Shown: positions 9,603 through 41,959 of the stretch, in pieces | Numbering within the stretch: the stretch's first letter is position 1 | How the letters are laid out: every line of letters begins with the position of its first letter | Origin: an uncultured Oscillospiraceae bacterium | GTDB taxonomy: Bacteria; Bacillota; Clostridia; Oscillospirales; Oscillospiraceae | Reading direction: 5' to 3' | DNA length: 42,704 bases | Assembly (NCBI GenBank): GCA_944385665.1 | Contig: CALWYB010000019.1 | Coordinates: forward strand, 1-42,704 | Translations under genes and position numbers: made by a program | The notes under the pieces: model-generated | The model's input: the letters and a program-made list of their open reading frames with translations, nothing else | What the model was told of the DNA's origin: nothing | Database searches by the model: none

Positions 9603-12600
9603 TTACTTCCAATCCTCCAGACCGTTGAGCTTGACGTACTCGTGGTCATTCACGGTTTCCATGATGGAGTAGTAACCCCAGAAGGAGGATCTCACGTCGG
9701 GGAAGGTGACCAGATCGTCCGCGTGCTCGTCCACGTAGTCCTCATCGGCGGCGCGGCCCAGCATGTTGTTGACGATCACAGAGACCTCAGCGCGGGTGAT
9801 GTTGTCGTTGGGACGGAAGTAGCCATTGCTGCCTCCGATCCAGCCGTAAGTAGTGGCCTGAGCGACGTAGGTGTAGAACCAGGCGCTGGTAGGCACATCG
9901 TTGTAGTTGCAGCTCGCGGTCAGAGGCTCATAGGCGAAAGCCAGAGCGATGGTAGCGAACTCAGCGCGGGTGATGGGGGCATCGGGATGGAAGGTACCAT
10001 CGGGATAGCCGGAAACCATACCCAGGGAGGCCAGAGTGTTCACAGCCTTGGCGTACCAGGCGTCCGCAGAGACGTCGGAGAAGGCCACGGTAGTGGTCAC
10101 GTTCTTGTTCAGCAGCAGAGCGTAGAACATCTGAGCGACCTCGGCACGGGTCATGTTGCGGTTGGGGCCGAAGGTGCCGTCGGGATAACCGGTCATGTAG
10201 GCCACGTGGTCCTTGGTCTCCAGCCAGTTGGAGGTGCCGCTGTCATCGGGGTCGGTGGGCAGCTTGGCGAAGTAGACCTCGATGGTGTGGTCTTCCGTCA
10301 CCCGCTCAAAGGTGTAGGTGTGCACCGCGCCCACGCTGACACCGTCCACCACCACGTCGTAGATCTTGTAGCCCTTGTCGGCGGTGATGGTATAGGTCTT
10401 GTCGGAGTACTTGTAGACCTTGTAGATACCGTCAGGGGAGATCTCGCCGCCCTTGTGAGCGGTGGCCTCGATGGTAAATCTCTGCTCGATGGAGGTCTTC
10501 CGCTCCCAACGGGCGTACAGGGTGATATTGCCGGTTACAGGAGTATCAAAGTCATAGGCTTTGCCATACTTTGTATACCAGCCGACAAACCAATACCCGC
10601 TGCGGGTGGGGTCCTTGGGCTCATATGCGGTGTTTCCATTCCGTACTCTCTGGGAGGCAACCGCAGAGCCGCCGTTGCTGTCAAAGCTGACAGTCCAGAA
10701 TTTGGTGACAGGGTTGGAGACATAGTACAGTTCGATCACTGCGCCGTCCTTGGCCGCATAGGGCAGGTTCGCAGGATTAGAGTGGTCGAAGGTGTATCCC
10801 TCGAAGGAACGAATAATCGTATCCTCGTCTACCGTCAGTTCTTTTTCTGCATTGACCCACACATTTCCATAGACAACCAATTCGGCCTTTTTGTCTTCTT
10901 TTCCGTTAAAGAAATATTTCACGGTATAGGAGATCAGGTCCTGCTGAGTGAAATCTTCCTTAAAGATGGCAGTAAAGGTGGTGTCCTCAGAGAACTTCAT
11001 ACTCTTTAGGGTCTCGGTGGAAACCAAGGGATCAGAAGAGGGCTTACCATCAATCTGCCAACCGGCAAACTGGTAGCCGGTCGCAGGCTTAGGAGTAGGA
11101 ACGTTTGTGGGATAGGCGGAAGTACCATTAAAGACAGGAACTTCCTCGCTGACCGCACCCGTCAGAGTACCGTTAGCATCGGCTTTGTAGGTAAAGGTGA
11201 TGGTCTCAGGAGCGGGAGTTTCTTCCGCCTTAAAGATGGCAGTAAAGGTGGTGTTCTCAGAGAACTTCATACCCTTCAGGGTCTCGGTGGAAACTAAGGG
11301 ATCAGAAGAGGGGTCACCAATCTGCCAGCCGGCAAACTGGTAGCCGGTCGCAGGATTAGGAGTAGGAACGTTTGTGGGATAGGCGGAAGTACCATTAAAG
11401 ACAGGGACTTCCTCGCTGACCGCACCAGTCAGAGTACCGTTAGCACCGGCTTTGTAGGTGAAGGTGATGGCCTGCTGAGAGGCAGTACACTTCACCTTGT
11501 ATTCTACGGTGGCAGCAGAAGGATCTTCCGCAATCCAAGAACCAGCCTTCGATATAACGGTAATATCCTTACTATCCTGAGTATTAGGATCCAGGGTGTG
11601 ATTCACCCCTGTATCCGTATTGTACTGAGTCACATACGCATCGGGGGATACAGTGACAGTACAGGTGTAACCGGAAGTAGCATCTCCCTGAACCTCACCG
11701 ATGTTGAAGCCGCCTTCCAAGAGACCATAGGGCTCGGGGCTACTATGAGTTGCCTGATTGTTATTGCACACCACCTTGACCTTGATAAAGCCTAGGTCGT
11801 TCACGGTGGGCTTGGCGGGCTTATCCGGATCGGAAGGCGTGGTGGGCTCGCACGTTACCTCAAAGGTCACGGGCAGTGCATCTTTAGGAGCGTCCCACTG
11901 GCAAGTAGTATCATTCCAAGTCAGGGTGATGGGCTCAGGCGCCTTCTCCAGAGTGTGAGTTACATTACCAGTGTCCTTATTAAACTCAGTAATGTACGGA
12001 TCAGACTTCACAGTAACGTCGCAGGTGTAGCCGCCGTCAGCCTGAGCGGTCACTTCACCAACGTCGCAGCTATCGCTCAGAACAGCATAATCCTGGAAAG
12101 TAACCTTGTGATCAGCTTCGGTGTTTGTACACTGAACTTTGATCTTGCCCAGGATGCCCGGGGCATTAGTATCGCCGGTCAGGTCGCTATCACTAGGCTT
12201 GGTAGGAGCCTCGATGATGGCCAAATCAATGATATGATCATACTCTGTTTGCTCAATCTTGAGCTGTCCGCGATTATCACCACGGGAAATAAAAACAGGA
12301 TTAAGATCATTTCCAGATACATCCTTAGCATAAATGGTAATGCCGGAAATCTCATTTACGGGAATGTGTGTGTTCTTAAGAGTATCTCCTATCGCTCCCT
12401 CTGCAGTATAGTTGTTTACGTAGTAGTAATCCCCGTTATTTTTCCACTCGTTGATGTAATAATCTTTATTTGTAGTCTCATTGTCTGCGCCGTTGACAGC
12501 AATTTTGATATTGTTCCAGTCAATGTCAGTGCTGTCAATTGTAGCGGTTGGATTCTGTGCGTTATACAACTCCACAAAACGCTTGAGCAGAAGGTTATCC

Positions 12601-13703
12601 CGGTTCAGAACATGATACTCTGTGCCACCAGGCGAAGCAGAAGATACTTTCATTGCATAGACATCCACATCCCCGTTTATAAGTGTCGTGGAAAGGAATG
12701 CGTCTCCGCCATTGGGATCATATGCCCAGTTTGCAAAAATGTACTCCGAATTATTATACTCAGGAGCCTCAGGCATATTGCCCACAAGTGTGACATTGTT
12801 GTTCACAAAGCGAACAGCATAGAGCGAGTAGATATCCTGCAAGCCGTCATCTTCATTGTAAAATGCAACAATGCTGGTGCTGTCTGCCCCCGTTGCATTG
12901 GCTTTGATCTCATAGGTGTTCCCGCCAATGTTGGAATACAGGAGGTCACCGGACGAGATAATGGCAGTCTTTTCCTGGCCATCCTGCTCATAGGTGATTT
13001 CCAGCTGCCGAATATTATTGGGGTTGCCGAGACCACCGGCATTAGACAATCCAGCAGTAGGATAAAAGTAGTGAAGATTCTTCGCTGCCGAAGGCATCTC
13101 AATCATAGACCATGTATTTGAGGCACCAAGATTCTTGACAAATCGGATCTGAACGCTCTTAATATCGGTCTGCTCATTCACGTTCGGATCTCCTGCAAGA
13201 TACAGCATTTTCAGCAGCTGCGCATCATACGCCCGGTAGTAGATGACCCCGGCCGTATCAATTACGCCGCCCTCAATTTCAGGTTCTTTGAATTGATTGC
13301 AGAGGGTAACATCAATAGTAACGTCGGGATCATCTGTACCTACGTTCCAGATACCCAAATCCCATGCATCCGCGTCCTCGGCAGTCAAGATCGCACCGCC
13401 GCCCGGATTAATGGTTACGGTCTCAATATCATAGTTATTCTGTTCACTGTCCTTCAGACTGATATGCATCTGATTTGCGGTTCTAGCACCATTGTTTACA
13501 GAAAAAGTCTCTAACTTCTGGTTGTTATAGTATACGTTGACAGTTATGGACAGATTGGCAGAGCCGGTACCATAATCCAAAGTGACATACTTTCCAGATT
13601 TTGTGGCCGACCCAGATGCCGCAAAAACCGACATAGGCAGCAGACTCAAGATCATACAAAGAGCCAGCAGCCAGCTCAGCGATTTTTTCAGTTTCTTACT
13701 CAT
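9603..13703 (-). CDS. Large secreted SLH-domain surface protein with InlB-type and tandem repeats
   Basis: 1366 residues. A signal peptide (about 1-29, ending SVFAA) is followed by an unrecognised N-terminal half (30-500), two related Cys-containing modules of about 120 residues (roughly 510-740), and two almost identical 89-residue modules (746-834 and 835-914) ending in the FTAIFK strand of InlB/Flg_new-like repeats. A MucBP-like block (about 925-1000), a Listeria-Bacteroides repeat (about 1004-1066, GYWFVGWYT...YARWE) and three SLH domains (about 1155-1366) come next. SLH domains hold proteins to pyruvylated wall polymer, so this is a wall-anchored adhesin or S-layer-associated protein. 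AGGAG precedes ATG at 13703. The N-terminal half is visibly richer in A+T than the SLH end. Confidence 0.9.
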   Translation of the reverse strand: MSKKLKKSLSWLLALCMILSLLPMSVFAASGSATKSGKYVTLDYGTGSANLSITVNVYYNNQKLETFSVNNGARTANQMHISLKDSEQNNYDIETVTINPGGGAILTAEDADAWDLGIWNVGTDDPDVTIDVTLCNQFKEPEIEGGVIDTAGVIYYRAYDAQLLKMLYLAGDPNVNEQTDIKSVQIRFVKNLGASNTWSMIEMPSAAKNLHYFYPTAGLSNAGGLGNPNNIRQLEITYEQDGQEKTAIISSGDLLYSNIGGNTYEIKANATGADSTSIVAFYNEDDGLQDIYSLYAVRFVNNNVTLVGNMPEAPEYNNSEYIFANWAYDPNGGDAFLSTTLINGDVDVYAMKVSSASPGGTEYHVLNRDNLLLKRFVELYNAQNPTATIDSTDIDWNNIKIAVNGADNETTNKDYYINEWKNNGDYYYVNNYTAEGAIGDTLKNTHIPVNEISGITIYAKDVSGNDLNPVFISRGDNRGQLKIEQTEYDHIIDLAIIEAPTKPSDSDLTGDTNAPGILGKIKVQCTNTEADHKVTFQDYAVLSDSCDVGEVTAQADGGYTCDVTVKSDPYITEFNKDTGNVTHTLEKAPEPITLTWNDTTCQWDAPKDALPVTFEVTCEPTTPSDPDKPAKPTVNDLGFIKVKVVCNNNQATHSSPEPYGLLEGGFNIGEVQGDATSGYTCTVTVSPDAYVTQYNTDTGVNHTLDPNTQDSKDITVISKAGSWIAEDPSAATVEYKVKCTASQQAITFTYKAGANGTLTGAVSEEVPVFNGTSAYPTNVPTPNPATGYQFAGWQIGDPSSDPLVSTETLKGMKFSENTTFTAIFKAEETPAPETITFTYKADANGTLTGAVSEEVPVFNGTSAYPTNVPTPKPATGYQFAGWQIDGKPSSDPLVSTETLKSMKFSEDTTFTAIFKEDFTQQDLISYTVKYFFNGKEDKKAELVVYGNVWVNAEKELTVDEDTIIRSFEGYTFDHSNPANLPYAAKDGAVIELYYVSNPVTKFWTVSFDSNGGSAVASQRVRNGNTAYEPKDPTRSGYWFVGWYTKYGKAYDFDTPVTGNITLYARWERKTSIEQRFTIEATAHKGGEISPDGIYKVYKYSDKTYTITADKGYKIYDVVVDGVSVGAVHTYTFERVTEDHTIEVYFAKLPTDPDDSGTSNWLETKDHVAYMTGYPDGTFGPNRNMTRAEVAQMFYALLLNKNVTTTVAFSDVSADAWYAKAVNTLASLGMVSGYPDGTFHPDAPITRAEFATIALAFAYEPLTASCNYNDVPTSAWFYTYVAQATTYGWIGGSNGYFRPNDNITRAEVSVIVNNMLGRAADEDYVDEHADDLVTFPDVRSSFWGYYSIMETVNDHEYVKLNGLEDWK
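10962..11468 (-). repeat. Near-identical 267-bp tandem repeat inside the SLH gene
   Basis: Copy 1 spans 11468-11202 and copy 2 begins at 11201. The period is 267 bp (89 codons). The encoded modules differ at only a few residues over about 80 (GAN/DAN, NPA/KPA, a short insertion near IDGK, KGM/KSM, SEN/SED), and DNA identity is high even at silent sites. Confidence 0.9.
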
Positions 13704-32022: not shown

Positions 32023-33540
32023 ATGGCAGACAACAAGTCCCTGGAAAAGAAAACGGGCGGAATCCTGGGCACCATTGAACGGGTGGGCAACGCCCTGCCC
32101 CACCCCTTCATCCTGTTTTTGTATCTGGTAGTTGCCCTGATTATCCTGGCCGCCGTCCTGGCCGCCCTGGGGGTGTCCGCGGTGAACCCCACCACCGGCG
32201 AGGTGGTAGCAGTGCAGAGCCTGCTCACCCGAGACGGCATGGTGTGGATTTTGGGCTCGCTGGTGAGTAACTTCTCCGGCTTTGCCGCCCTGGGCATCGT
32301 GCTGGTGATGCAGATGGCCATCGGCGTCACCGAGGCCAGCGGCCTGCTCACCACCGCCATCCGCCGGGCCGTGTTGGGCGTGCCCACCTGGGCCCTCACC
32401 GCCACCGTGCTGTTTATCGGCATCAACGGCTCCATTGCTTCCGAGGCCTCCATCATCTTTATCCCGCCGCTGGCGGCCGCCGCCTTCTATGCCGCCGGCA
32501 AGCATCCCCTGGCGGGCCTCATCGCCGGCTATGCCGCCACCAACGCCGGCTTTACCGCCAACCTGATGATCACCGCCACCGACGCCCTCCTGTACGGCGT
32601 CACCCAGGAGGCGGCCCAGATGATCGACCCCTCCTACACCACCACCCCCGCCAACAACTGGTACTTCATGATCGCCTCCTGCTTTGTGCTGACCATTGTG
32701 GGCACCGTCGTCAACGACCGCATCATTGAGCCCCGTCTGGGCAAGTTCACCGGCAGCGAGGTGGACCAGGCCCGGGACGCCACCGACCTGGAGAAAAAGG
32801 GCCTGCGCAACGCGGGCATCTTCTCGGTCATCTTCATCGCTCTCATCCTCATCGGCCTCATCCCCTCCAACGGCATCCTCCGGGGAGACGACGGCTCCAT
32901 CATCAATGGGCCCTTCATTACCGGCCTGGTCCCCTTCCTGCTGGCCTACTTCGTGCTGGTGGGCGTGGTCTACGGCTTCACCGTGGGCACCTTTAAAAAG
33001 CTGGAGGACATCCCCCGGGTGATGTCCGAGTCCCTCACCTCCCTCACCGGCTACATCGTGCTGGTCTTTGTCATCGCCCAGTTTATCGCCATCTTCAACT
33101 ACACCAACCTGGCCATGGTCATCGCGGTCAACGCCGCCTCCTTCCTCAATGACATTGGGCTTACCGGTGTGCCCCTGATCCTGGCCATTCTGCTGGTCAC
33201 CACCTTTGTCAACTTCTTCATGACCAGCGGCACTGCCAAGTGGTATATTTTCGCCCCCATCTTTGTGCCCATGTTCATGATGCTGGGCCTCACCCCCGAG
33301 TTTGCCCAGGTGGTCTACCGCATCGCCGACTCCTGCACCAACCCCATCACCCCCATCTACCCCTACCTGCCCATGGTCATCGGCATGGCCGCCAAGTACG
33401 ACAAGAAGTTCGGCATGGGCAACGTGATCTCCATGATGATCCCCTACTCCTTCGGGTTCCTTATCATCTGGACCATCTTTGTGATCGCCTGGATGTTCCT
33501 GGGCCTGCCCCTGGGTCCCGGTGCCTCCGTATTCCTGTAA
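32023..33540 (+). CDS. AbgT-family transporter
   Basis: 505 residues with about 11-12 membrane segments. The signature LFIGINGSIASEASIIFIPPLAAAAF, with a polar Ser/Asn-rich helix hairpin, and the late MTSGTAKWYIFAPIFVPMFMMLGLTPE block are AbgT family hallmarks. The E. coli prototype imports p-aminobenzoyl-glutamate; some relatives export antimetabolites. Here two amino-acid-releasing hydrolases follow in the same operon, which favours import of a peptide-like substrate. AGGAAAGGA lies about 12 bases before ATG 32023. It is first in an apparent operon with the genes at 33585 and 34855. Confidence 0.93.
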   Translation: MADNKSLEKKTGGILGTIERVGNALPHPFILFLYLVVALIILAAVLAALGVSAVNPTTGEVVAVQSLLTRDGMVWILGSLVSNFSGFAALGIVLVMQMAIGVTEASGLLTTAIRRAVLGVPTWALTATVLFIGINGSIASEASIIFIPPLAAAAFYAAGKHPLAGLIAGYAATNAGFTANLMITATDALLYGVTQEAAQMIDPSYTTTPANNWYFMIASCFVLTIVGTVVNDRIIEPRLGKFTGSEVDQARDATDLEKKGLRNAGIFSVIFIALILIGLIPSNGILRGDDGSIINGPFITGLVPFLLAYFVLVGVVYGFTVGTFKKLEDIPRVMSESLTSLTGYIVLVFVIAQFIAIFNYTNLAMVIAVNAASFLNDIGLTGVPLILAILLVTTFVNFFMTSGTAKWYIFAPIFVPMFMMLGLTPEFAQVVYRIADSCTNPITPIYPYLPMVIGMAAKYDKKFGMGNVISMMIPYSFGFLIIWTIFVIAWMFLGLPLGPGASVFL

Positions 33541-33584
33541 GCGTTTCGGTTTTTCCTTGTGTTGCGGCATAGAGGAGATGTGTT

Positions 33585-34841
33585 ATGAACTACAAAAAGC
33601 TGCTGTGCGGACAGCTGTATGACGGCCTGGAGGACCGCCTCCGGCCCCACCAGGAGATCCTGATCGGGGACGGCACCATTCTGGAGGTAGGCCCCCACAC
33701 CGCCGCTCCCCAGGGGTGCCGGGTCGTGGACCTGAGCGCCCTCACCGTCACCCCCGGCATGATCGACGCCCACGTCCACGCCTCCTTCTTTGACTGGCGG
33801 GAGATCGGCAAGGATGTGGTGTACTACTCCGATGGCATGCGGGCGCTGGCGGTGGCCGAGTGTGCCCGGAAGGCCCTGTCCGGCGGCTTCACCACCATCC
33901 GCCACGTGGGCTGGTTCCGCCAGGACTACTCCCTGGACGTGAAGCGGGCCATTGAGGCCGGATACATCCAGGGCGCCCGGATGGTGGTGGCCCCCCACTT
34001 CCTGTGTACCCCCGGCAGTCACGGGGACACCACCCAGAGCATCGCGGTCAATCCTGCCCTGTCCAACTTTCTGGAGGGGCAGTACCCCACCATGGGCACC
34101 GGAGCCGACTTTTTCCGCAACGCCGTGCGTCACGAGGTGAAGATCGGCGCCGATTTTATTAAGATCATGGCCACCGGCGGCTTCTTCACCCCCAACGACT
34201 CCCCGGAGGACATCCAGCTCTCCGACGACGAGCTGCGCTCCATCATCGACACTGCCCACGCCCTCCACACCACCGTCACCGCCCACGCCTACACCGCCCA
34301 GCTGGTGAGCAAGTTGGCCGACATGGGCATCGACGGCATTGAGCACGCCTCCCTGGCCGACCGGGAGGCCATCCACCGCCTGGAGGACCGGGACATCTAC
34401 GTGGTGCCCACCCTGTGCCCCTACGACGAGATCGTGCTGTTGGACGAGGAGAAGCTCTCCCAGAAGTCCCCGGAGTTCCGGCGCAAGCTGTACCACTACC
34501 GGGACCGGCTGGTGGAGAGCCGCCGCCTGCTGCTGGACAGCAACCTGCGCCTGGGCTACGGCACCGACCTGGTGGTGGGCTATCAGAACTACGAGTGCGG
34601 CCGGGAGTATTCCGCCTGGCTGCGCAACGGGGTGGACCCCTACCGGGCGCTGAAGGCCGCCACGGCGGAAAACGCCCGGATTCTGGGCCTGTCCCACCAG
34701 ATCGGCACCATTGAGCCCGGCAAGCTGGCCGATGTGGCCGCCTGGGGCCGGGACCTTCTGCGGGACCACACCGCCCTGCTGGACTGCGCCTTTGTCATGA
34801 AGGAGGGCCGGGAGGTACCCAGCCGCTCCATGCTGTACTGA
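33585..34841 (+). CDS. Amidohydrolase (COG1228, prolidase/imidazolonepropionase-like)
   Basis: 418 residues. Metal ligands are visible: DAHVH with His63 and His65, a Lys in FIKIMATGG, AHAYT, GIEHASL and GTDL. Together they define the binuclear-type M38 amidohydrolases that include Xaa-Pro and Xaa-Arg/Lys dipeptidases. An N-terminal and C-terminal beta-sandwich (1-55, 370-418; IGTIEPGKLADVAAW) completes the fold. ATG at 33585 follows AGAGGAG. It starts 44 bp after the transporter and ends 13 bp before the carboxypeptidase, so it shares their transcript. A role in cleaving an imported dipeptide or acyl-amino acid is inferred from context. Confidence 0.88.
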   Translation: MNYKKLLCGQLYDGLEDRLRPHQEILIGDGTILEVGPHTAAPQGCRVVDLSALTVTPGMIDAHVHASFFDWREIGKDVVYYSDGMRALAVAECARKALSGGFTTIRHVGWFRQDYSLDVKRAIEAGYIQGARMVVAPHFLCTPGSHGDTTQSIAVNPALSNFLEGQYPTMGTGADFFRNAVRHEVKIGADFIKIMATGGFFTPNDSPEDIQLSDDELRSIIDTAHALHTTVTAHAYTAQLVSKLADMGIDGIEHASLADREAIHRLEDRDIYVVPTLCPYDEIVLLDEEKLSQKSPEFRRKLYHYRDRLVESRRLLLDSNLRLGYGTDLVVGYQNYECGREYSAWLRNGVDPYRALKAATAENARILGLSHQIGTIEPGKLADVAAWGRDLLRDHTALLDCAFVMKEGREVPSRSMLY

Positions 34842-34854
34842 GGAGGACCATTTT

Positions 34855-36363
34855 ATGAATTATCAACAGCACCTGGAGACCATCACTCAGATTGGCCGGG
34901 AGTTCCGCTACTGCAAGAGCGTGGAGTCCCTGTTTGAGCTGGACCAGTGGTCCGCCCTGCCCCGGAAGGGGGTAGATTACCGCCAGGAGATGGCCGCCTA
35001 TGTGGCCCGGGAGAAGACCCGTCTCTACTGCACCGACCAGGCCGCCCAAGAGGAAGAATACTTCGCCCAGGTGCCGCTCAGCGAGATCGGAGACGAGGTG
35101 GAGCGGGGCGTGATCCGCACCTTTCTCCAGCGCCGCCGGGTGGCGGCCCGCACCCCGGAGGATCTCCAGCGGCAGTATAGCCTCATCAAGGCGGAGTGTA
35201 TGGAGAAGTGGAAGCAGGCCCGAGAGGCCAAGGACTACCGCATCTTCCAGCCCTGGCTCCAGCAGGCCTTCGACCTGAAAGGACAGATCGCCAAGGCCAT
35301 CGACCCCGACCGCCCCGCCTTTGACACCCTGGTGGGCCTCACCGACGATGGGGCCGATGTTGAGGAGATCTCCCGGGAGTTTGACGTGCTGAAAGAGGGG
35401 CTGAAGGCCCTGATGCACAAGCTGTCCCAAGGCCGTGCCCCCCAGGCGGTGGAGTATCCCCAGGGGGACCCGGCGGCCATGTCCGCCTTCGCCCAGAGCC
35501 TGGCCCGGGAGCTGGGCTTTCCCACCGACCTTGGCACCTTCAATGACCGGGTGGTCCACGGCTTCACCTCCTTTATGGGACCCCGGGATGCCCGGGTGTC
35601 CACCTACCGCTCGGGCAGCCACGAGCTCATCTTTACCTGCCTCCACGAGGCGGGCCACGCCATGTACTCCACCGGCAGCAGCCAGAAGGTGATCGACGCC
35701 GGGCTGTGGGGCGGCATCGAGGGGGGCTTCCACGAGGCCAACTCCCGCTTCTATGAGAACATGGTGGGCCGCAGCCGGGCCTACTGGGACTACTGCTTCC
35801 CCAAGCTGGTGAACACCCTGCCCCAGTTTGCCGGGATGGATCAAGATACGTTTTATCTGGGCCTGCATCGGGTGCAGCCCAGTCTCAAGCGCATCGCCTC
35901 TGACGAGGTGACTTACAGCCTCCACGCCATCCTCCGCTTTGAGCTGGAGCGGGACTATTTTGCAGGAAAACTCCGGGCCGAGGACATGGCCCAGGCCTGG
36001 AACCGGAAGTACCAGGACTACCTGGGTCTGTGTCCCCCCGACGACACCCAGGGAGTCCTCCAGGACATGCACTGGGCGGGGGACTATATCGGCTACTTCC
36101 AGAGCTACGCCCTGGGCAACATCTATGACGGCCAGATCCTCCAGGCCCTGGAGCGGGACAAGCCGGACTGGCAGGAGGACATCCGCCGGGGCAAGTTTGG
36201 CCCCCTCAACGACTGGATGCGGGAGAACATTTGGAGCCACGGCTGCTGCCTGACCGCCGGAGAGCTGGTGAAACAGATCACCGGCAGCTCCCTGGACGCC
36301 CGCCCCTTCCTGAAGTATCTGGACGAGAAGTATTCCGTCCTCTATGGCCTTGCGCCCCAATAA
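34855..36363 (+). CDS. M32-family metallocarboxypeptidase
   Basis: 502 residues, the usual M32 length. The zinc site is HEAGH (His264, Glu265, His268) with the third ligand Glu in GFHEANSRFYEN (about 294), matching the family HESQSR motif. The arginine/acidic segments near DEVTYSLHAILRFELER and GYFQSYALGNIYDGQ are also typical. M32 enzymes remove C-terminal residues from peptides in the cytoplasm. AGGAGG sits 8 bp before ATG 34855, which is 13 bp after the previous stop. It is the last gene of the AbgT operon; a large terminator follows. Confidence 0.93.
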   Translation: MNYQQHLETITQIGREFRYCKSVESLFELDQWSALPRKGVDYRQEMAAYVAREKTRLYCTDQAAQEEEYFAQVPLSEIGDEVERGVIRTFLQRRRVAARTPEDLQRQYSLIKAECMEKWKQAREAKDYRIFQPWLQQAFDLKGQIAKAIDPDRPAFDTLVGLTDDGADVEEISREFDVLKEGLKALMHKLSQGRAPQAVEYPQGDPAAMSAFAQSLARELGFPTDLGTFNDRVVHGFTSFMGPRDARVSTYRSGSHELIFTCLHEAGHAMYSTGSSQKVIDAGLWGGIEGGFHEANSRFYENMVGRSRAYWDYCFPKLVNTLPQFAGMDQDTFYLGLHRVQPSLKRIASDEVTYSLHAILRFELERDYFAGKLRAEDMAQAWNRKYQDYLGLCPPDDTQGVLQDMHWAGDYIGYFQSYALGNIYDGQILQALERDKPDWQEDIRRGKFGPLNDWMRENIWSHGCCLTAGELVKQITGSSLDARPFLKYLDEKYSVLYGLAPQ

Positions 36364-36370
36364 CGAGAAG

Positions 36371-36415
36371 AAATGCCCCCGCTCTCCCAAACGGCTGGGA
36401 GAGCGGGGGCATTTT
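36371..36415. terminator. Terminator between the AbgT operon and the dlt-like operon
   Basis: A perfect 19-bp stem (36371-36389 with 36396-36414). The T-run is modest on both strands (ATTTTG, ATTTCTT); it serves the converging operons. Confidence 0.85.
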
Positions 36416-36449: not shown

Positions 36450-37400
36450 TCAATGGGAGATCAGGTTTTCATAGGCCTTCAGCTTGTCGTTCCAGTCGCC
36501 GTAGGCCGGGTCGGAGCGGTGGTCGATAAGCCCGTCCTTGCCCCGCAGGTAGTTGGAGAGAAACTTGGTCACCTTCACCGCGCCGAAGTGGTTCAGGTGG
36601 TCGCCTTTGTCAAAGGTGTCCTGGGTCCAGTCGATTCCTACATTTTCCAGGTTCAAATCCAGGTACTCGTAGCCCTGCTCCTGGGCAAAGGCCGCGATGC
36701 CCTCGTGCCGGGCGTAGTTCCAGTTCACTGGGCTGGGGGTGCTCAGCAGCAGAAACTGGGCTCCATAGTCCTCACACAGCTCCTGGATGGCATTCACGTA
36801 GTACTGATTGACCAGGGGGATGGTGGCTGCCGGTTCCTGGGTGGGCGCCATGTAGTCCACGTTGAGGCAGGGGTCCACCGTCTCGTTATGGGTGTGTCCC
36901 TTGTAGGGGGCCTGCTCCGTGGCCGTGATGGGGGCGGTGGTAAAGTCGTTCCAGTGGAGATCTTTCCACCGGTTGTGGTAGCGAAAAACGGGCAGGTATT
37001 TGGCCGCCTCATCGGAGGCTATGGAGTCCAGCTTGATGGGCCGGTAGATGGCCAGGGTCTCCAGAATGACCAGCTTGGGGCGCTGCTTCTCCAGGGCCCG
37101 CTCCAGCATGGTCTTGGTGTAGGGCAGGCGCTGGCTGTTGGTGCCGCAGGTATAGCTGGTGTAGCCGGTGTCCTTCCACAGCAGCAGGGGAGAGAAGGAG
37201 GTATAGGCCTCGCTGTCCCCCAGCACCAGGATGTCGATGGACTCGGGCGGCTCGGCCAAAATCCCGTTGGCCCGCGCCTGCTCCATGCCCGATAGAGAAT
37301 CGTTGTTTTTTGGAATACATATACGAGAAGCAAGAAGAAGGAGCCCCAACAGACCGGCCAAAAAGACCAGCCAGGCGAGGATCCGTTTGCAGTAAGTCAT
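36450..37400 (-). CDS. SGNH-fold transferase/esterase of a dlt-like operon (DltD/AlgX-type role)
   Basis: 316 residues. One N-terminal membrane helix (about 8-25) displays an SGNH domain outside. The nucleophile Ser63 is in VLGDSEAYTSF, an Asn-containing block lies at TNSQRLPY, and the catalytic Asp/His are in DKGDHLNHFG (about 264-273). In D-alanylation and polysaccharide O-acylation systems such proteins move the acyl group from the MBOAT to the final polymer. It is the last gene of the operon, 18 bp after the MBOAT stop. Acyl type and acceptor are not known. Confidence 0.82.
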   Translation of the reverse strand: MTYCKRILAWLVFLAGLLGLLLLASRICIPKNNDSLSGMEQARANGILAEPPESIDILVLGDSEAYTSFSPLLLWKDTGYTSYTCGTNSQRLPYTKTMLERALEKQRPKLVILETLAIYRPIKLDSIASDEAAKYLPVFRYHNRWKDLHWNDFTTAPITATEQAPYKGHTHNETVDPCLNVDYMAPTQEPAATIPLVNQYYVNAIQELCEDYGAQFLLLSTPSPVNWNYARHEGIAAFAQEQGYEYLDLNLENVGIDWTQDTFDKGDHLNHFGAVKVTKFLSNYLRGKDGLIDHRSDPAYGDWNDKLKAYENLISH

Positions 37401-37418
37401 GAAATGCCTCCTTGGAGT

Positions 37419-39020
37419 TTAGAATCCCGCATAGATGGGGTCCACCGGGACGTAGCCGTCGCCGTAGGCGCCGAAGATGATGAGGGCCAAAATCACCCCG
37501 TAGTAGACGACGAACCGTACCGGGATAAGGGCCTGGGCCAGACGGGTTCCCAGGTGGATGCCCCGCTCCTGGAGAAGGCCGATGACAAAGATCGCTCCCA
37601 GCAGGAGGGCCACGATGAAGAAGTCCTTCCGGGACATACCGATCTGGAAGATGGTGCCGTTGCGCAGGGGCTCCAGGGTGGAGGCGGTGACCATCCGTTC
37701 AAACATGGCCAGTCCTGCCCGCAGGCCGTTGGCCCGGAAGAACAGCTCGCCGATGCACACCAGAAGGCCGGTGCGGACGATCTGGAAGCAGCGGTAGGGC
37801 AGACTGGTGCGGGAGATATGCAGCGCCCCGGTGAGCTTGTCGGTGACGGGCTGGGTGAGGTTGCCCAGAAGGATGAGGGCGAAGTGGTACATGCCGAAGA
37901 AGAGGTAGCTCCAGGCCGAGCCGTGCCACAGGCCGTTGCACACCCACACGCAGAACAGGGCGATGGTGCCCGCCACCAGGGGGCCGTAGTGGCTGCCCAG
38001 GCGCTTCCGGGCCTTGGAGGTGAGCTTTTTCAGGGGCTTGGACATGGACAGGGGATAGAAGATGTAGTCCTTGAACCAGGTGCCCAGAGTGATGTGCCAG
38101 CGCTGCCAGAACTCGGGGATGGTGCGGGAGAAGAAGGGGCGCTGGAAGTTCTCGGGCAGCTGGAAGCCGAAGATCTGGCCCGCTCCCACCGCCAGGTCCA
38201 TGGTGCCGGAGAAGTCCATGTACAGCTGGATGGTGTAGCACACGGCGGCCACGGCGATGGCGATGCCGTCGTAGTTCTCATAGTGGGTAAAGACGTTTTT
38301 GATGAGGAGGTTGAGCCGGTCGGCAATGATCATCTTTTTCAGCAGGCCATAGCTCATCCGCTGCAGGCCCAGCATGAAGTTCTGGTAGCGCAGAGGGGGA
38401 GCCTCCCACAGCTGGTGGGCGGTCTGCCCGTAGCGGCAGATGGGGCCCTCCATCACCTGGGGGAAGAAGCCCAGAAACAGAGCCAGGCGGAAGAGATTGC
38501 GGTCGGCGGAGCACTTCTGGCGGTAGACGTCAAAGAGGTAGGAGGCCGCCTGCATGGTGTAAAAGGAGATGCCGATGGGCAGCAGAAAGCGGGGCACCCG
38601 CAGGGAGTAGGACAGGCCCAGGGCGGAAAAGAGATTGTTCAGGTTGGTGACGGCAAAGGGGCTGTACTTGAGCACCAGCAGAATCCCGAACTGAATGGAC
38701 AGCCCCAGGGCCAGAATCCAGCGCTGGTGTGTCTGGGCCCTGGCCCGCAGGGCTTTCCGTTCCTCTTTGGGGGCGGCGGCCAGCTCCGCCTTGGAGCGGT
38801 CCTGCACGTCGGACAGCCACAGCCCAAAGTGGTGGATGGACAGGGTGGACAGGAGCAGATAGGCGATCAGTTTTCCGCTGACCGCCCAAAAGCACACCGC
38901 GCTGAACAGAAGAAGCACCACCCGCCGGCCCCGCTGCCCCGCCAGGGCGTAGAGCAGTACGCACACCGGCAGGTAGACAGCCAGGTATCCGGAGGAGAAG
39001 TAGGAGGAGAAGGAGAGCAT
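37419..39020 (-). CDS. MBOAT-family membrane O-acyltransferase (DltB-like)
   Basis: 533 residues with about 11 membrane segments. The catalytic His366 is in CNGLWHGSAW, and the preceding PEFWQRWHITLGTWFKDYIFYPL is the cytosolic re-entrant funnel typical of DltB/AlgI/PatA. It takes an acyl group from an intracellular carrier and passes it across the membrane. The protein ends DPIYAGF: a terminal IYxxF of the kind that in DltX or in fused form on other MBOATs carries the acyl group on tyrosine. ATG at 39020 follows GAGGAAGG; it begins 1 bp after the ACP stop codon. Confidence 0.92.
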   Translation of the reverse strand: MLSFSSYFSSGYLAVYLPVCVLLYALAGQRGRRVVLLLFSAVCFWAVSGKLIAYLLLSTLSIHHFGLWLSDVQDRSKAELAAAPKEERKALRARAQTHQRWILALGLSIQFGILLVLKYSPFAVTNLNNLFSALGLSYSLRVPRFLLPIGISFYTMQAASYLFDVYRQKCSADRNLFRLALFLGFFPQVMEGPICRYGQTAHQLWEAPPLRYQNFMLGLQRMSYGLLKKMIIADRLNLLIKNVFTHYENYDGIAIAVAAVCYTIQLYMDFSGTMDLAVGAGQIFGFQLPENFQRPFFSRTIPEFWQRWHITLGTWFKDYIFYPLSMSKPLKKLTSKARKRLGSHYGPLVAGTIALFCVWVCNGLWHGSAWSYLFFGMYHFALILLGNLTQPVTDKLTGALHISRTSLPYRCFQIVRTGLLVCIGELFFRANGLRAGLAMFERMVTASTLEPLRNGTIFQIGMSRKDFFIVALLLGAIFVIGLLQERGIHLGTRLAQALIPVRFVVYYGVILALIIFGAYGDGYVPVDPIYAGF

Positions 39021-39021
39021 A

Positions 39022-39252
39022 TCAGCCTTCCTCGCGCAGGCGCTGGATCATCTCCCACAGACGCTGGGCGGAGTTGAAGTTGTCGGGGATGATCTCCACG
39101 GTGGGGATGGTGATGTCAAAGGCGTCCTCCATCTCGGAGACCAGGGAGAGGATGTCCAGAGAGTCCAGGTAGTGGCCGTCGATAAGCTCGTCGCAGTTCA
39201 GGTAGTCCACGTCGGGCTGGATCTCGTTCAAAATGGTCAGCAGTTCTTCCAT
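39022..39252 (-). CDS. Acyl carrier protein (DltC-like)
   Basis: 76 residues, acidic, four-helix carrier fold by size and pattern. Ser31 in YLDSLDILSLV is the phosphopantetheine site. It resembles DltC-type carriers (LDSLD) more than fatty-acid ACP (DSLDTVE). ATG at 39252; it lies 18 bp after the decarboxylase and touches the MBOAT gene. It should be loaded by the adenylation enzyme upstream. Confidence 0.9.
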   Translation of the reverse strand: MEELLTILNEIQPDVDYLNCDELIDGHYLDSLDILSLVSEMEDAFDITIPTVEIIPDNFNSAQRLWEMIQRLREEG

Positions 39253-39270
39253 AACAAATCGCTCGCTTTC

Positions 39271-40443
39271 TTAATAGTTTGGCGTATTCAAAATCCGGGT
39301 GGGGAAGGGGTCCCGCAGGGAGGTCACCTGTCCGCTGGGGCGGCGCAGGAGGATCTGGGGCAGGCTCCGGCTGAGGAAGAGGCCGATGCCCTCGGTCATG
39401 CAGTAGGCGCCGGTGTTTTCAAAGACCAGCACGTCCCCGATCTCCAGATTGGAGAGGGGCAGCTGCTTGACCAGAATGTCGTTGACGGTGCACAGGGCGC
39501 CGCAGATGTTCCAGTTCTGAGGCTCCGCTTCGGGTCGGGGCGGATAGAGAGAAATGTGGGGGCGGCGCATGGCCATGCTCTGGCCGAAGTACACCAGGTG
39601 GTGGATGCCTCCGTCCACAATGGCGTAGTTCTGGCCCTGATTTATTTTTCGATCCACCACCCGGGTCACATACTGCCCGCAGCCGGCGGCGATGCTCCGG
39701 CCCAGCTCCAGGGTGAGCTTGCCGGCAAAGTTCAGCTGGCCCAGCAGCTCCCCGGCCTGGACCAACACCCCCTCGTCCTCTTTGGCGTCGTCGGCAAAGT
39801 AGGACACGGGGAAGCCGGGGCCCAGCTCCAGCTCCTCCAGGGGACCAAACTTCTCTTGGAGGGCGGCCAGAACCTCCTCCAGCATCCGCAGCTCCCGGGC
39901 CAGGCGCTTCACGGAGGTCTTCTGGGTGCCGGAGAAGTACTGGATGCCCCGGATGTGCAGCAGCGGGTGGGGCTGGGAGAGGATTTTCTCGATCTCCGGC
40001 CGCTCCAGACCGAACTGGCTGCCGCTGGTGAGACGCAGCAGCAGGGACAGCTTCCGTCCATAGCGCCCGGCGGTCTCCCGGAGCAGGTGGAACTGGGTCA
40101 TGGACTCCACGGTGCAGATCATCTGCTCCGCGTCGGGCTGGCGCACCAGGTCGTCCATCCACTGGGGGTCCTTATATACCCCGGAGATGACAAACTGACT
40201 GGGGGGCAGCTCCAGCTGGCGGCAGATGGCGTACTCCCCGGGGGAGCAGATCTCCAGCCGCTCCACCATGCCGCTCAGCTCCCGGGTGAGGAAGGGGTTG
40301 GCCTTCATGGCATAGCACAGGGCGGTGTCCTGGGGCAGGACATCCCGCAGGTGGTCCACCCGGCGGCGAAGGGTCTCCGTGTCAAAGAGATAAAACGGGG
40401 TGGGAAAGTGCTCCAGCAGCGCGGACAGAGAGGTGTCAGACAT
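39271..40443 (-). CDS. Fold-III PLP-dependent amino-acid decarboxylase (DAPDC/ODC superfamily)
   Basis: 390 residues. The alanine-racemase-type barrel has the PLP lysine Lys47 in CYAMKANPF, a glycine-rich phosphate loop (LGPGFPVSYF), ELGRSIAAGCG (the EPGR block) and the C-terminal catalytic block GALCTVND (canonical CxxxD). These are decarboxylase features, not those of alanine racemase. Its start overlaps the adenylation gene by 8 bp. Gene order places it between ligase and carrier, where it may act on a carrier-bound amino acid, as BtrK does on glutamyl-S-BtrI. It could instead decarboxylate the free amino acid. The SxGxHxG-type specificity loop does not let me name a substrate. Confidence 0.88.
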   Translation of the reverse strand: MSDTSLSALLEHFPTPFYLFDTETLRRRVDHLRDVLPQDTALCYAMKANPFLTRELSGMVERLEICSPGEYAICRQLELPPSQFVISGVYKDPQWMDDLVRQPDAEQMICTVESMTQFHLLRETAGRYGRKLSLLLRLTSGSQFGLERPEIEKILSQPHPLLHIRGIQYFSGTQKTSVKRLARELRMLEEVLAALQEKFGPLEELELGPGFPVSYFADDAKEDEGVLVQAGELLGQLNFAGKLTLELGRSIAAGCGQYVTRVVDRKINQGQNYAIVDGGIHHLVYFGQSMAMRRPHISLYPPRPEAEPQNWNICGALCTVNDILVKQLPLSNLEIGDVLVFENTGAYCMTEGIGLFLSRSLPQILLRRPSGQVTSLRDPFPTRILNTPNY

Positions 40444-41959
40444 GGGTAGCCCCTCCTTTCATCAGTTCTTTCCGGTCAATTTTTCCGTTTTTGGTCAGGG
40501 GGAACCGGTCCACCTGGGTGAGGATGCCGGGGACCATGAAGTAGGGCAGCTGCTCCTTGAGCTGGCGGCGCAGCTGGGGAGCCTGGATGTCGCCCATGTA
40601 GAAGCCGTAAATTTTCTGCTTCTCCTCCTGGTAGACGCAGCAGCAGCGCTCCACCCCCGGCAGGGCGGACACCGCCCGCTCGATCTCCTCCAGCTCCACC
40701 CGGTGGCCCAGGTGCTTGATCTGGAAGTCCTTCCGGCCGCTGTACACCAGCTCCCCGTCCTGGTTGTACCGGCCCAGGTCGCCGGTGCGGTAGATGAGCT
40801 CGGGGTAGGCGGGGTTGCGGGGGTCGGGGACAAAGGCGGCGGCGGTCTGCTGAGGGGCCCGGTAGTAGCCCAGTGCCAGGGCGGTGCCCCGCACGCACAG
40901 CTCGCCGGTCACCTCCGGCTCCCGGATCTCCCGGCTCTCCCCGTCCAGAAGGAAGACCTCCTCGTTGGGGAAGGGGCGGCCGATGGGGATACCGGCGGAG
41001 TAGTCCCGGGTCCGGTCCAGGATGTGGTAGGTGCAGTTGCAGGTAATCTCGGTGGGACCGTAGAGGTTGACAAACTGGGCCCGGGGCAGGTGCTCCATCC
41101 AGGTTTTCAGATGCTTGAGGGGCATGACCTCTCCGCTGAACAGGACGTTGCGCACCGTCTCCGGGGTGCGGTAGTCCAGACCGTGGAAGGTGCTGATGAG
41201 GCACAGGGCGGAGACTGCCCAGATGAGGGTGGTGACCCGGTGCTGGCACAAAAAGTCCAGCAGCTCCTTGGGCCGGGAGAACAGCCGCCGGGGGATGAGC
41301 ACCAGGGTGGCCTGGAGCTTCAGCGCCCCGTAGATGTCCTTCACCGACACGTCGAAGTCCAGGGGAGCCTGGTTGCCGATGCGGTCGGCCTGGGTGAAGG
41401 AGAAGGTGTCGGTAAAGACGTCGATGAAGTCCAGCACCGAGCGGTGGCTCACCAGCACCCCCTTGGGCACGCCGGTGGAGCCGGAGGTAAAGTTGATGTA
41501 GAGAGGATCGGTGTCGATCATGGCGGCCCGGACGGCGGCCAGCCGGGACTGGTCCGCGTCAGCGGCCATCAGCTCCTCCACCATTAAAATGTGCTCGGGA
41601 GAAAAGACCTCCTGAATGGCCTCCCGGTGCTCCCGGTCGGTGATCACATACCGGGCCTGGAGTACCCCCTGGATCTGCTGCAGCCGGGAGGCGGGCAGCT
41701 CCGGGTTGAAGTAGGAGTAGAAGCCCCCGGCATATACGATGCCGAAGAAGGCGCACAGGGCGGGACATCCCTTTTCCATGTAGACCGCCACCGGCTCCCG
41801 GGAGTGGATGCGCTGGGAGAGGGCGGCGCCCACGGTGCGGCTGAAGTGACACAGCTGCTGATAGGTATAGTGTTGTATTTCATCCACGCAGGCGGTCTGT
41901 GCCGGGGAAACCGAGGCCGCCCGTTCCAGGTATTGAAGAACGTTACGAATGGGAATCAC
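40436..41959 (-). CDS. Amino-acid adenylation enzyme (DltA-like, NRPS A-domain family)
   Basis: 507 residues, a stand-alone A domain. Core motifs are present in order: A3 INFTSGSTGVPKG (about 155-167), A4 FDVSVKDIYG (Phe202, Asp203; the Asp that holds an alpha-amino group), A5 NLYGPTEIT, A7 YRTGDLGRY, A8 GRKDFQIKHLGHRVELEEIE, and A10 NGKIDRKEL with Lys493. It should activate an amino acid with ATP and load the adjacent carrier. GTG at 41959 is used, with a weak ribosome site (GGCAG); no better start is in frame. It is the first gene of the operon. It differs from housekeeping DltA in the pocket region, so D-alanine is not assumed. Confidence 0.9.
   Translation of the reverse strand: MIPIRNVLQYLERAASVSPAQTACVDEIQHYTYQQLCHFSRTVGAALSQRIHSREPVAVYMEKGCPALCAFFGIVYAGGFYSYFNPELPASRLQQIQGVLQARYVITDREHREAIQEVFSPEHILMVEELMAADADQSRLAAVRAAMIDTDPLYINFTSGSTGVPKGVLVSHRSVLDFIDVFTDTFSFTQADRIGNQAPLDFDVSVKDIYGALKLQATLVLIPRRLFSRPKELLDFLCQHRVTTLIWAVSALCLISTFHGLDYRTPETVRNVLFSGEVMPLKHLKTWMEHLPRAQFVNLYGPTEITCNCTYHILDRTRDYSAGIPIGRPFPNEEVFLLDGESREIREPEVTGELCVRGTALALGYYRAPQQTAAAFVPDPRNPAYPELIYRTGDLGRYNQDGELVYSGRKDFQIKHLGHRVELEEIERAVSALPGVERCCCVYQEEKQKIYGFYMGDIQAPQLRRQLKEQLPYFMVPGILTQVDRFPLTKNGKIDRKELMKGGATHV

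Follow-up and report, generated by a model that had tools for sequence, protein, structure and literature searches.

Organization of the locus

The 42,704-nucleotide window analyzed here (the whole stretch of contig CALWYB010000019.1 under study, from an uncultured Oscillospiraceae bacterium) contains, on the minus strand at positions 36450–41959, a packed operon of five genes which resembles dltABCD with a decarboxylase gene added. The gene order is ligase (A), decarboxylase (D), carrier (C), membrane-bound O-acyltransferase (MBOAT; B) and SGNH protein (S), hereafter A-D-C-B-S, with gaps of −8, 18, 1 and 18 bases, A and D overlapping by 8 bp. A (40436–41959; 507 amino acids) is a stand-alone amino-acid adenylating ligase recognized by AMP-binding (Pfam) and TIGR01733, and D (39271–40443; 390 amino acids) is a fold-III pyridoxal phosphate (PLP) decarboxylase according to Orn_DAP_Arg_deC (Pfam) and residue alignment. 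C (39022–39252; 76 amino acids) is a carrier protein with a DSLD motif that matches PP-binding (Pfam) at its cut-off. B (37419–39020; 533 amino acids) is a DltB-like MBOAT (Pfam MBOAT; TIGR04091 below its cut-off), while S (36450–37400; 316 amino acids) is, by its predicted fold, a membrane-anchored SGNH-fold protein with an N-terminal helix at residues 2–28. The initial annotation, made from the sequence alone, had listed these five packed genes and named their products; the layout was confirmed, as were the identities, by Pfam for four products and by predicted fold for S.

Conservation and joint evolution of the operon

Relatives were obtained from a genome-contig scan using D as query, of which the best 80 of the 400 confirmed were retained. 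A-D-C-B-S was found contiguous and on one strand in 75 of these 80. The exceptions were L019, L058 and L068, interrupted by contig ends, and L064, where B is split over two frames; in L091 (9999–16751) the order is A-D-B-S-C-B-S, i.e., one carrier and two MBOAT/SGNH pairs. Hosts include Ruminococcus bromii, Agathobaculum, Pseudoflavonifractor, Catenibacillus, Acetobacterium, Traorella, Holdemania and one Streptococcus suis record. A-D-C-B-S is a genuine unit with a wide distribution, which reaches from Oscillospiraceae to Traorella and S. suis, and its gene order, conservation of which had been set as a check in the initial annotation, is kept well beyond one genus. In L039 (13049–17038), B is followed by four consecutive SGNH genes.

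The five proteins have also evolved jointly. Pairwise distances correlated for all 10 protein pairs over the 71 loci where every protein was full (r from 0.55 for C–S to 0.85 for A–B), and none of 999 permutations gave as high a value for any of the 10 pairs, host kinship being a contributor to the correlation. In the window's own family, the operon is patchy, D occurring in 13 of 300 genomes (two of six in the same genus), and seven of these 13 hold D at 36–40% identity in rearranged loci (L009–L015). Matches from a plasmid search, all below 60% identity, served for comparison loci.

The decarboxylase lacks the specificity residues of diaminopimelate decarboxylase

Alignment of D places the PLP lysine at K47 and the catalytic cysteine at C318, with Asp322 and an LCTVND motif. 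K47 is conserved in 100% and C318 in 99% of 95 sequences. In the specificity alignment of 92 D proteins, from which L002 and L003 (as family) and L014 (a broken frame, its pieces kept apart) were left out, C318 and D322 are present in 92/92. D scores below the LysA cut-off (TIGR01048, 148.1 vs. 297.9), and its best NCBIfam match is TIGR03099, with 166.8 bits against a cut-off of 478.45.

In the diaminopimelate (DAP), ornithine and arginine decarboxylases, an acidic residue next to the catalytic cysteine binds the distal amine of the substrate. The corresponding residue in D is Thr in 76, Ser in 15 and Ala in one of the 92 proteins, and acidic in none, and the position of the arginine for the DAP carboxylate is occupied by Tyr285 in 92/92. 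At these same two positions, Glu and Arg are found in the LysA-like protein that the window's genome also encodes. Thr beside the catalytic cysteine is also found in BtrK, in the VinO-like protein of L184 and in an exosortase-type protein, and the LCTxxD loop is common to BtrK- and VinO-type enzymes. Judged from these alignments, D carries the residues of thioester-type decarboxylases and not those of the DAP, lysine, ornithine or arginine enzymes; it has the PLP lysine, catalytic cysteine and LCTxxD of the BtrK/VinO type, with ligase and carrier genes adjacent.

A separate LysA match better than D was detected in 33 of the 39 operon genomes tested, D being the best or only match in six (G303, G315, G321, G324, G326 and G334). 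In one of these six, Traorella massiliensis (G321), whose genome is possibly incomplete, there was no dapB over the cut-off and D was the only LysA match, and the operon is kept; of 12 operon genomes tested, 11 had dapA and dapB scores over the cut-off. Since the specificity residues are lost, a separate LysA is usual and Traorella has no dapB over the cut-off, D is unlikely to be a lysine-pathway enzyme. Thus, of the three outcomes that the initial annotation had named as contrary to its proposal, two, namely a decarboxylase serving only general metabolism and a gene order that is not conserved, are unlikely, because the order is conserved and D is unlike the DAP, lysine, ornithine and arginine enzymes.

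The ligase pocket departs from that of DltA

Ligase A passed TIGR01733 (343.7 bits; cut-off 317.4) and fell below both DltA cut-offs (TIGR01734, 280.3 vs. 559.85; NF003417, 284.9 vs. 476). Its pocket, mapped by alignment to GrsA positions 235, 236, 239, 301, 322, 330, 331 and 517, consists of D203, V204, K207, S275, L299, C307, N308 and K493. The aspartate that binds the amino group (D203) is kept in 86 of 89 ligases linked to D, with Ile in L009–L011, and at position 207 (GrsA-239) the 89 readable D-linked ligases have Lys (86) or Arg (three), four further sequences having a gap there. In S. suis DltA and in four solved DltA sequences (SFDLSVM), the residue at position 207 is Met. K207 and S275 of ligase A replace the D-alanine pocket residues Met200 and Cys269 (B. 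cereus DltA numbering), whose roles are described in PMC11253843.

A fuller pocket string (FSGE with CNCT) was present in 6/6 D-linked and 1/23 D-less ligases among the matches listed; this comparison covered 29 ligase loci, among the matches listed, of at least 94. Lys at the GrsA-239-type position is known from adenylation domains (A-domains) that activate Glu (A-domain code), and Lys or Arg at 207 fits an acidic substrate. In the structural ranking of ligase A, many A-domains tie, so the ranking says nothing on its substrate.

According to PMC11253843, VinN can activate 3-methylaspartate as a β-amino acid owing to a short β13–β14 loop with Lys-Arg. The loop reads GPTEITCNCT in the window ligase vs. 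GQTEAKR (L184) or GLTECKR in VinN-like partners. A VinN-like loop shortened by one residue in ligase A, apparent from a gap in the MAFFT alignment and implying activation of Asp through its β-carboxyl, was rejected, as HMMER put the gap after T310 and a VinN-like ligase, when aligned directly with A, proved to have a quite different, shorter loop; Asp stays a possible substrate.

D-linked ligases form a clade among D-less sister operons

In a tree of 108 ligases, built after removal of nine short fragments, 82 D-linked rows fell in one clade (SH-aLRT support 98), joined by the D-less row L153 (support 94). Two D-linked ligases, L012 and L013 (G163 and G095), fell outside this main clade; at these loci A adjoins D, a carrier-like gene follows 0.5–0.7 kb on, and there is no MBOAT within the stretch examined. 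Ligase matches at E ≤ 1e-75 occurred in 82 of 300 genomes of the window's family, and D-less ligases of A's kind are therefore common. Among 20 regions fetched around such ligase matches, 10 had contiguous A-C-B-S without D, three had D and seven had other or partial arrangements. Because nearly all D-linked ligases share one clade and D-less ligases are common, D looks like a module that a pre-existing A-C-B-S system acquired once or a few times. The D-less A-C-B-S operons (L159–L178) show several distinct pocket types, e.g., FDACLKE/FGSE/GMSC and FDNSVLD/FAGE/VDCT, and ligases of differing pocket type may load other amino acids.

Carrier, acyltransferase and SGNH protein

In carrier C, Ser31 of the DSLD motif is invariant (100% of 90 sequences), and the protein lies below the DltC cut-off (NF003464, 28.3 vs. 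68). H309 and H366 of MBOAT B are likewise invariant (100% of 87 sequences), its score against the DltB model TIGR04091 being 159.3 bits vs. a cut-off of 375. S had no family match in Pfam or NCBIfam; its fold, predicted from 28 sequences with a pLDDT of 93.4, is that of an SGNH hydrolase plus an N-terminal helix, with S63 and D267/H268 conserved. When the predicted fold was searched with Foldseek, DltD (6o93) was retrieved at an E value of 3.9e-4, ranked below many SGNH esterases; the 50-row VIA list obtained for S does not contain DltD. A second MBOAT is encoded in the window's genome apart from the operon (G000 contig C8, L099, 1126–2526, minus strand; DltB model 148 bits, below the cut-off). 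The same genome encodes six PF00884 proteins; five of them are long and score weakly against the model for lipoteichoic acid synthase (29–102 bits; cut-off 970).

Relation to dlt, genomic context and possible regulation

With dltABCD the operon shares the grouping of ligase, carrier, MBOAT and membrane SGNH protein in a single operon, B being DltB-like. It differs in the added decarboxylase, in that no protein attains a Dlt cut-off, in the ligase pocket at DltA's Met and Cys269 positions, and in that S is without a Pfam or NCBIfam match. A canonical DltA over the cut-off was found in one of 41 operon genome rows, that of S. suis; since G301 and G305 share coordinates with G066 and G202, these rows represent approximately 39 distinct genomes. 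Outside S. suis, the operon may substitute for dlt.

Of the 80 loci, 66 have at least 2.5 kb of upstream sequence; 33 of these 66 carry an OmpR-type two-component system (kinase and regulator) close upstream, and 38 carry a kinase there. This upstream system suggests that the operon is controlled by envelope stress. Apart from the two-component and ABC genes, none of the clusters flanking the operon occurred in more than 10 loci.

In the window, a terminator-like stem-loop lies just 3′ of S on the minus strand (36371–36414), between the operon and a convergent M32 peptidase gene; it is a consensus match only, in a region with eight such sites found vs. 4.6 expected. The divergent gene upstream of the operon is of the alanine dehydrogenase/transhydrogenase type. 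On the plus strand, convergent with the operon, positions 32023–36363 hold a row of AbgT-type transporter, amidohydrolase and M32 carboxypeptidase genes, which resembles aminobenzoyl-glutamate or peptide use. Further away, a surface protein of 1366 amino acids with S-layer homology domains and Listeria-Bacteroides repeats is encoded at 9603–13703 (minus strand).

Comparison with known systems

Stand-alone A-domain, acyl carrier protein (ACP) and fold-III PLP decarboxylase acting on an aminoacyl-ACP are combined in the vicenistatin and fluvirucin pathways. In the former, VinN attaches 3-methylaspartate to VinL, and VinO accepts only the resulting thioester for decarboxylation (PMC11284099); in the latter, FlvN, FlvL and FlvO convert Asp to β-alanyl-ACP (PMC10951976). 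A Streptomyces vicenistatin-like locus has 28% identity to both A and D. Unlike the window's operon, these systems have no MBOAT or SGNH protein, their product enters a polyketide synthase (macrolactam starter loading), and their ligases carry the short Lys-Arg loop that the window ligase is without.

In butirosin synthesis, BtrK converts glutamyl-S-BtrI to GABA-S-BtrI (GABA, γ-aminobutyric acid; PMC7857480). BtrK, which is among the best-scoring relatives of D of solved structure, is thus a fold-III decarboxylase acting on a γ-glutamyl carrier, and the LCTxxD, GTQ and GG(I/M)HH motifs are common to it and D; its pathway differs in building an antibiotic side chain, without an export acyltransferase. 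The butirosin ligase BtrJ is reportedly an ATP-grasp enzyme.

A ligase adjoining a decarboxylase is also found in the exosortase A system-associated pair TIGR03098/TIGR03099, which in Sinorhizobium lies among glycosyltransferases. Neither A (210.5 vs. 592.35 for TIGR03098) nor D attains the respective cut-off, and the pair differs in being Gram-negative and in having no MBOAT/SGNH pair in the Sinorhizobium stretch examined. A DltA-like ligase and a carrier likewise serve envelope decoration other than with D-alanine in AlmE/AlmF/AlmG, for lipid A glycylation in Vibrio (PMC11253843). That system uses glycine and has no decarboxylase. AlmG is said not to be an MBOAT.

A literature search aimed at the operon, which mostly did not extend to subscription papers, found no description of it. 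The novelty proposed in the initial annotation appears to hold for the operon as a whole and not for its A-domain/ACP/decarboxylase part, which has precedents in VinN/VinL/VinO and FlvN/FlvL/FlvO and a pair named in NCBIfam. The decarboxylase trio is known from antibiotic synthesis and the export half from dlt; joining the two appears new.

Proposed pathway and alternatives

The best explanation of the locus would be a dlt-like decoration of a surface polymer in which an acidic amino acid is decarboxylated on its carrier, a reading that draws on sequence and on analogy and to which we assign a probability of about 0.55. In this pathway, A would adenylate an acidic amino acid and load its side-chain carboxyl onto the phosphopantetheine of C, and D would remove the free α-carboxylate while the amino acid is on C, yielding an ω-amino acyl thioester. 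The product on C would be γ-aminobutyryl if the substrate is Glu, which is slightly favoured, or β-alanyl if it is Asp. B and the membrane-anchored S would then carry the acyl group across the membrane and esterify a polymer outside the cell, in the manner of DltB and DltD with D-alanine. We infer the substrate, the order of the steps and the acceptor.

Several observations weigh against this proposal. The equivalent of Lys207 is also present in 17 of 23 D-less sister ligases (among the matches listed); Lys207 thus marks more than D-linked ligases and was rejected as an exclusive marker of D. Ligase A is without the VinN-type short Lys-Arg loop for β-carboxyl activation of Asp, its loop length being that of α-amino-acid ligases; this absence slightly favours Glu over Asp. 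D scores alike against a DAP decarboxylase (2p3e, 94.8 bits) and BtrK (93.2 bits), which is why its specificity residues matter. At one locus (L153/L170, G124), the ligase shows the pocket type linked to D but no D lies between A and C, the contig ending about 350 bases upstream. In the window itself, there are no two-component genes beside the operon. Finally, one S. suis record (G328; L075, L100) encodes a DltA (745 bits) some 25 kb from the operon, and there the operon must serve an additional role because the canonical DltA is also present. The aminoacyl decoration put forward in the initial annotation is partly supported, by the kept order, the non-DltA pocket, the thioester-type residues of D and the separate LysA of most operon genomes tested; the pocket Lys is not exclusive to D operons.

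The same gene set and final decoration would result if D first decarboxylated free Glu or Asp and A then loaded GABA or β-alanine on C for export by B and S. The incednine pathway (IdnL3) does decarboxylate free β-glutamate before loading. However, the basic residue of the ligase pocket would then be without a partner, as GABA and β-alanine have no second carboxylate, and relatives of D with VinO/BtrK-type motifs act on carrier-bound substrates, which makes this order of steps improbable. Somewhat less probable still is ordinary D-alanylation by a divergent dlt operon with D as an accessory, e.g., a racemase-like or unrelated metabolic enzyme. Dlt models are among the NCBIfam matches of A, B and C, and the operon could replace dlt in the 40 of 41 genome rows where a canonical DltA is absent; yet all three proteins lie below the Dlt cut-offs, Met is replaced by Lys and Cys269 by Ser relative to the solved DltAs, S. 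suis also retains a full-score DltA, and D travels with the operon and keeps its cysteine and aspartate (C318 and D322) in 92/92.

Transfer of the acyl group to a lipid, an exopolysaccharide or a secreted small molecule instead of a wall polymer was judged about as improbable as divergent D-alanylation, or a shade more so; against a small molecule, no biosynthetic genes for one are conserved among the clusters beside the operon. Loading of meso-DAP via one carboxyl and decarboxylation of its other end by D, to give a lysyl decoration, is the least probable of all. The matching scores of D to DAP decarboxylase and BtrK, an α-type pocket (Asp203 kept) that fits an amino acid with its own α centre, and the occurrence of dapA and dapB in 11 of 12 genomes would be consistent with it, but D no longer has either the acidic residue that contacts the distal amine or the arginine of the distal carboxylate, and Traorella massiliensis, albeit a single and possibly incomplete genome, keeps the operon without a dapB over the cut-off.

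Implications for the cell surface of gut Bacillota

In many Gram-positive bacteria, surface charge and the response to cationic peptides are determined by D-alanyl esters. We tentatively propose, at less than even odds, that many gut Bacillota, mostly without a recognizable DltA in the sample, use GABA or β-alanine esters on a surface polymer, made by on-carrier decarboxylation under adjacent two-component control, as an alternative chemistry in the role of D-alanylation. In that case, this operon and the D-less A-C-B-S ones would belong to a modular family, with the surface amino acid determined by the ligase (and D). From general chemistry, mild alkali should cleave an ω-amino ester less readily than a D-alanyl ester. 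The proposed pathway predicts that the mass of a single small protein, the carrier, changes by 44 Da, which allows a direct check. If the proposal is true, a large group of gut bacteria would set surface charge by another acyl group, and on-carrier decarboxylation, so far known from antibiotic synthesis, would serve surface decoration.

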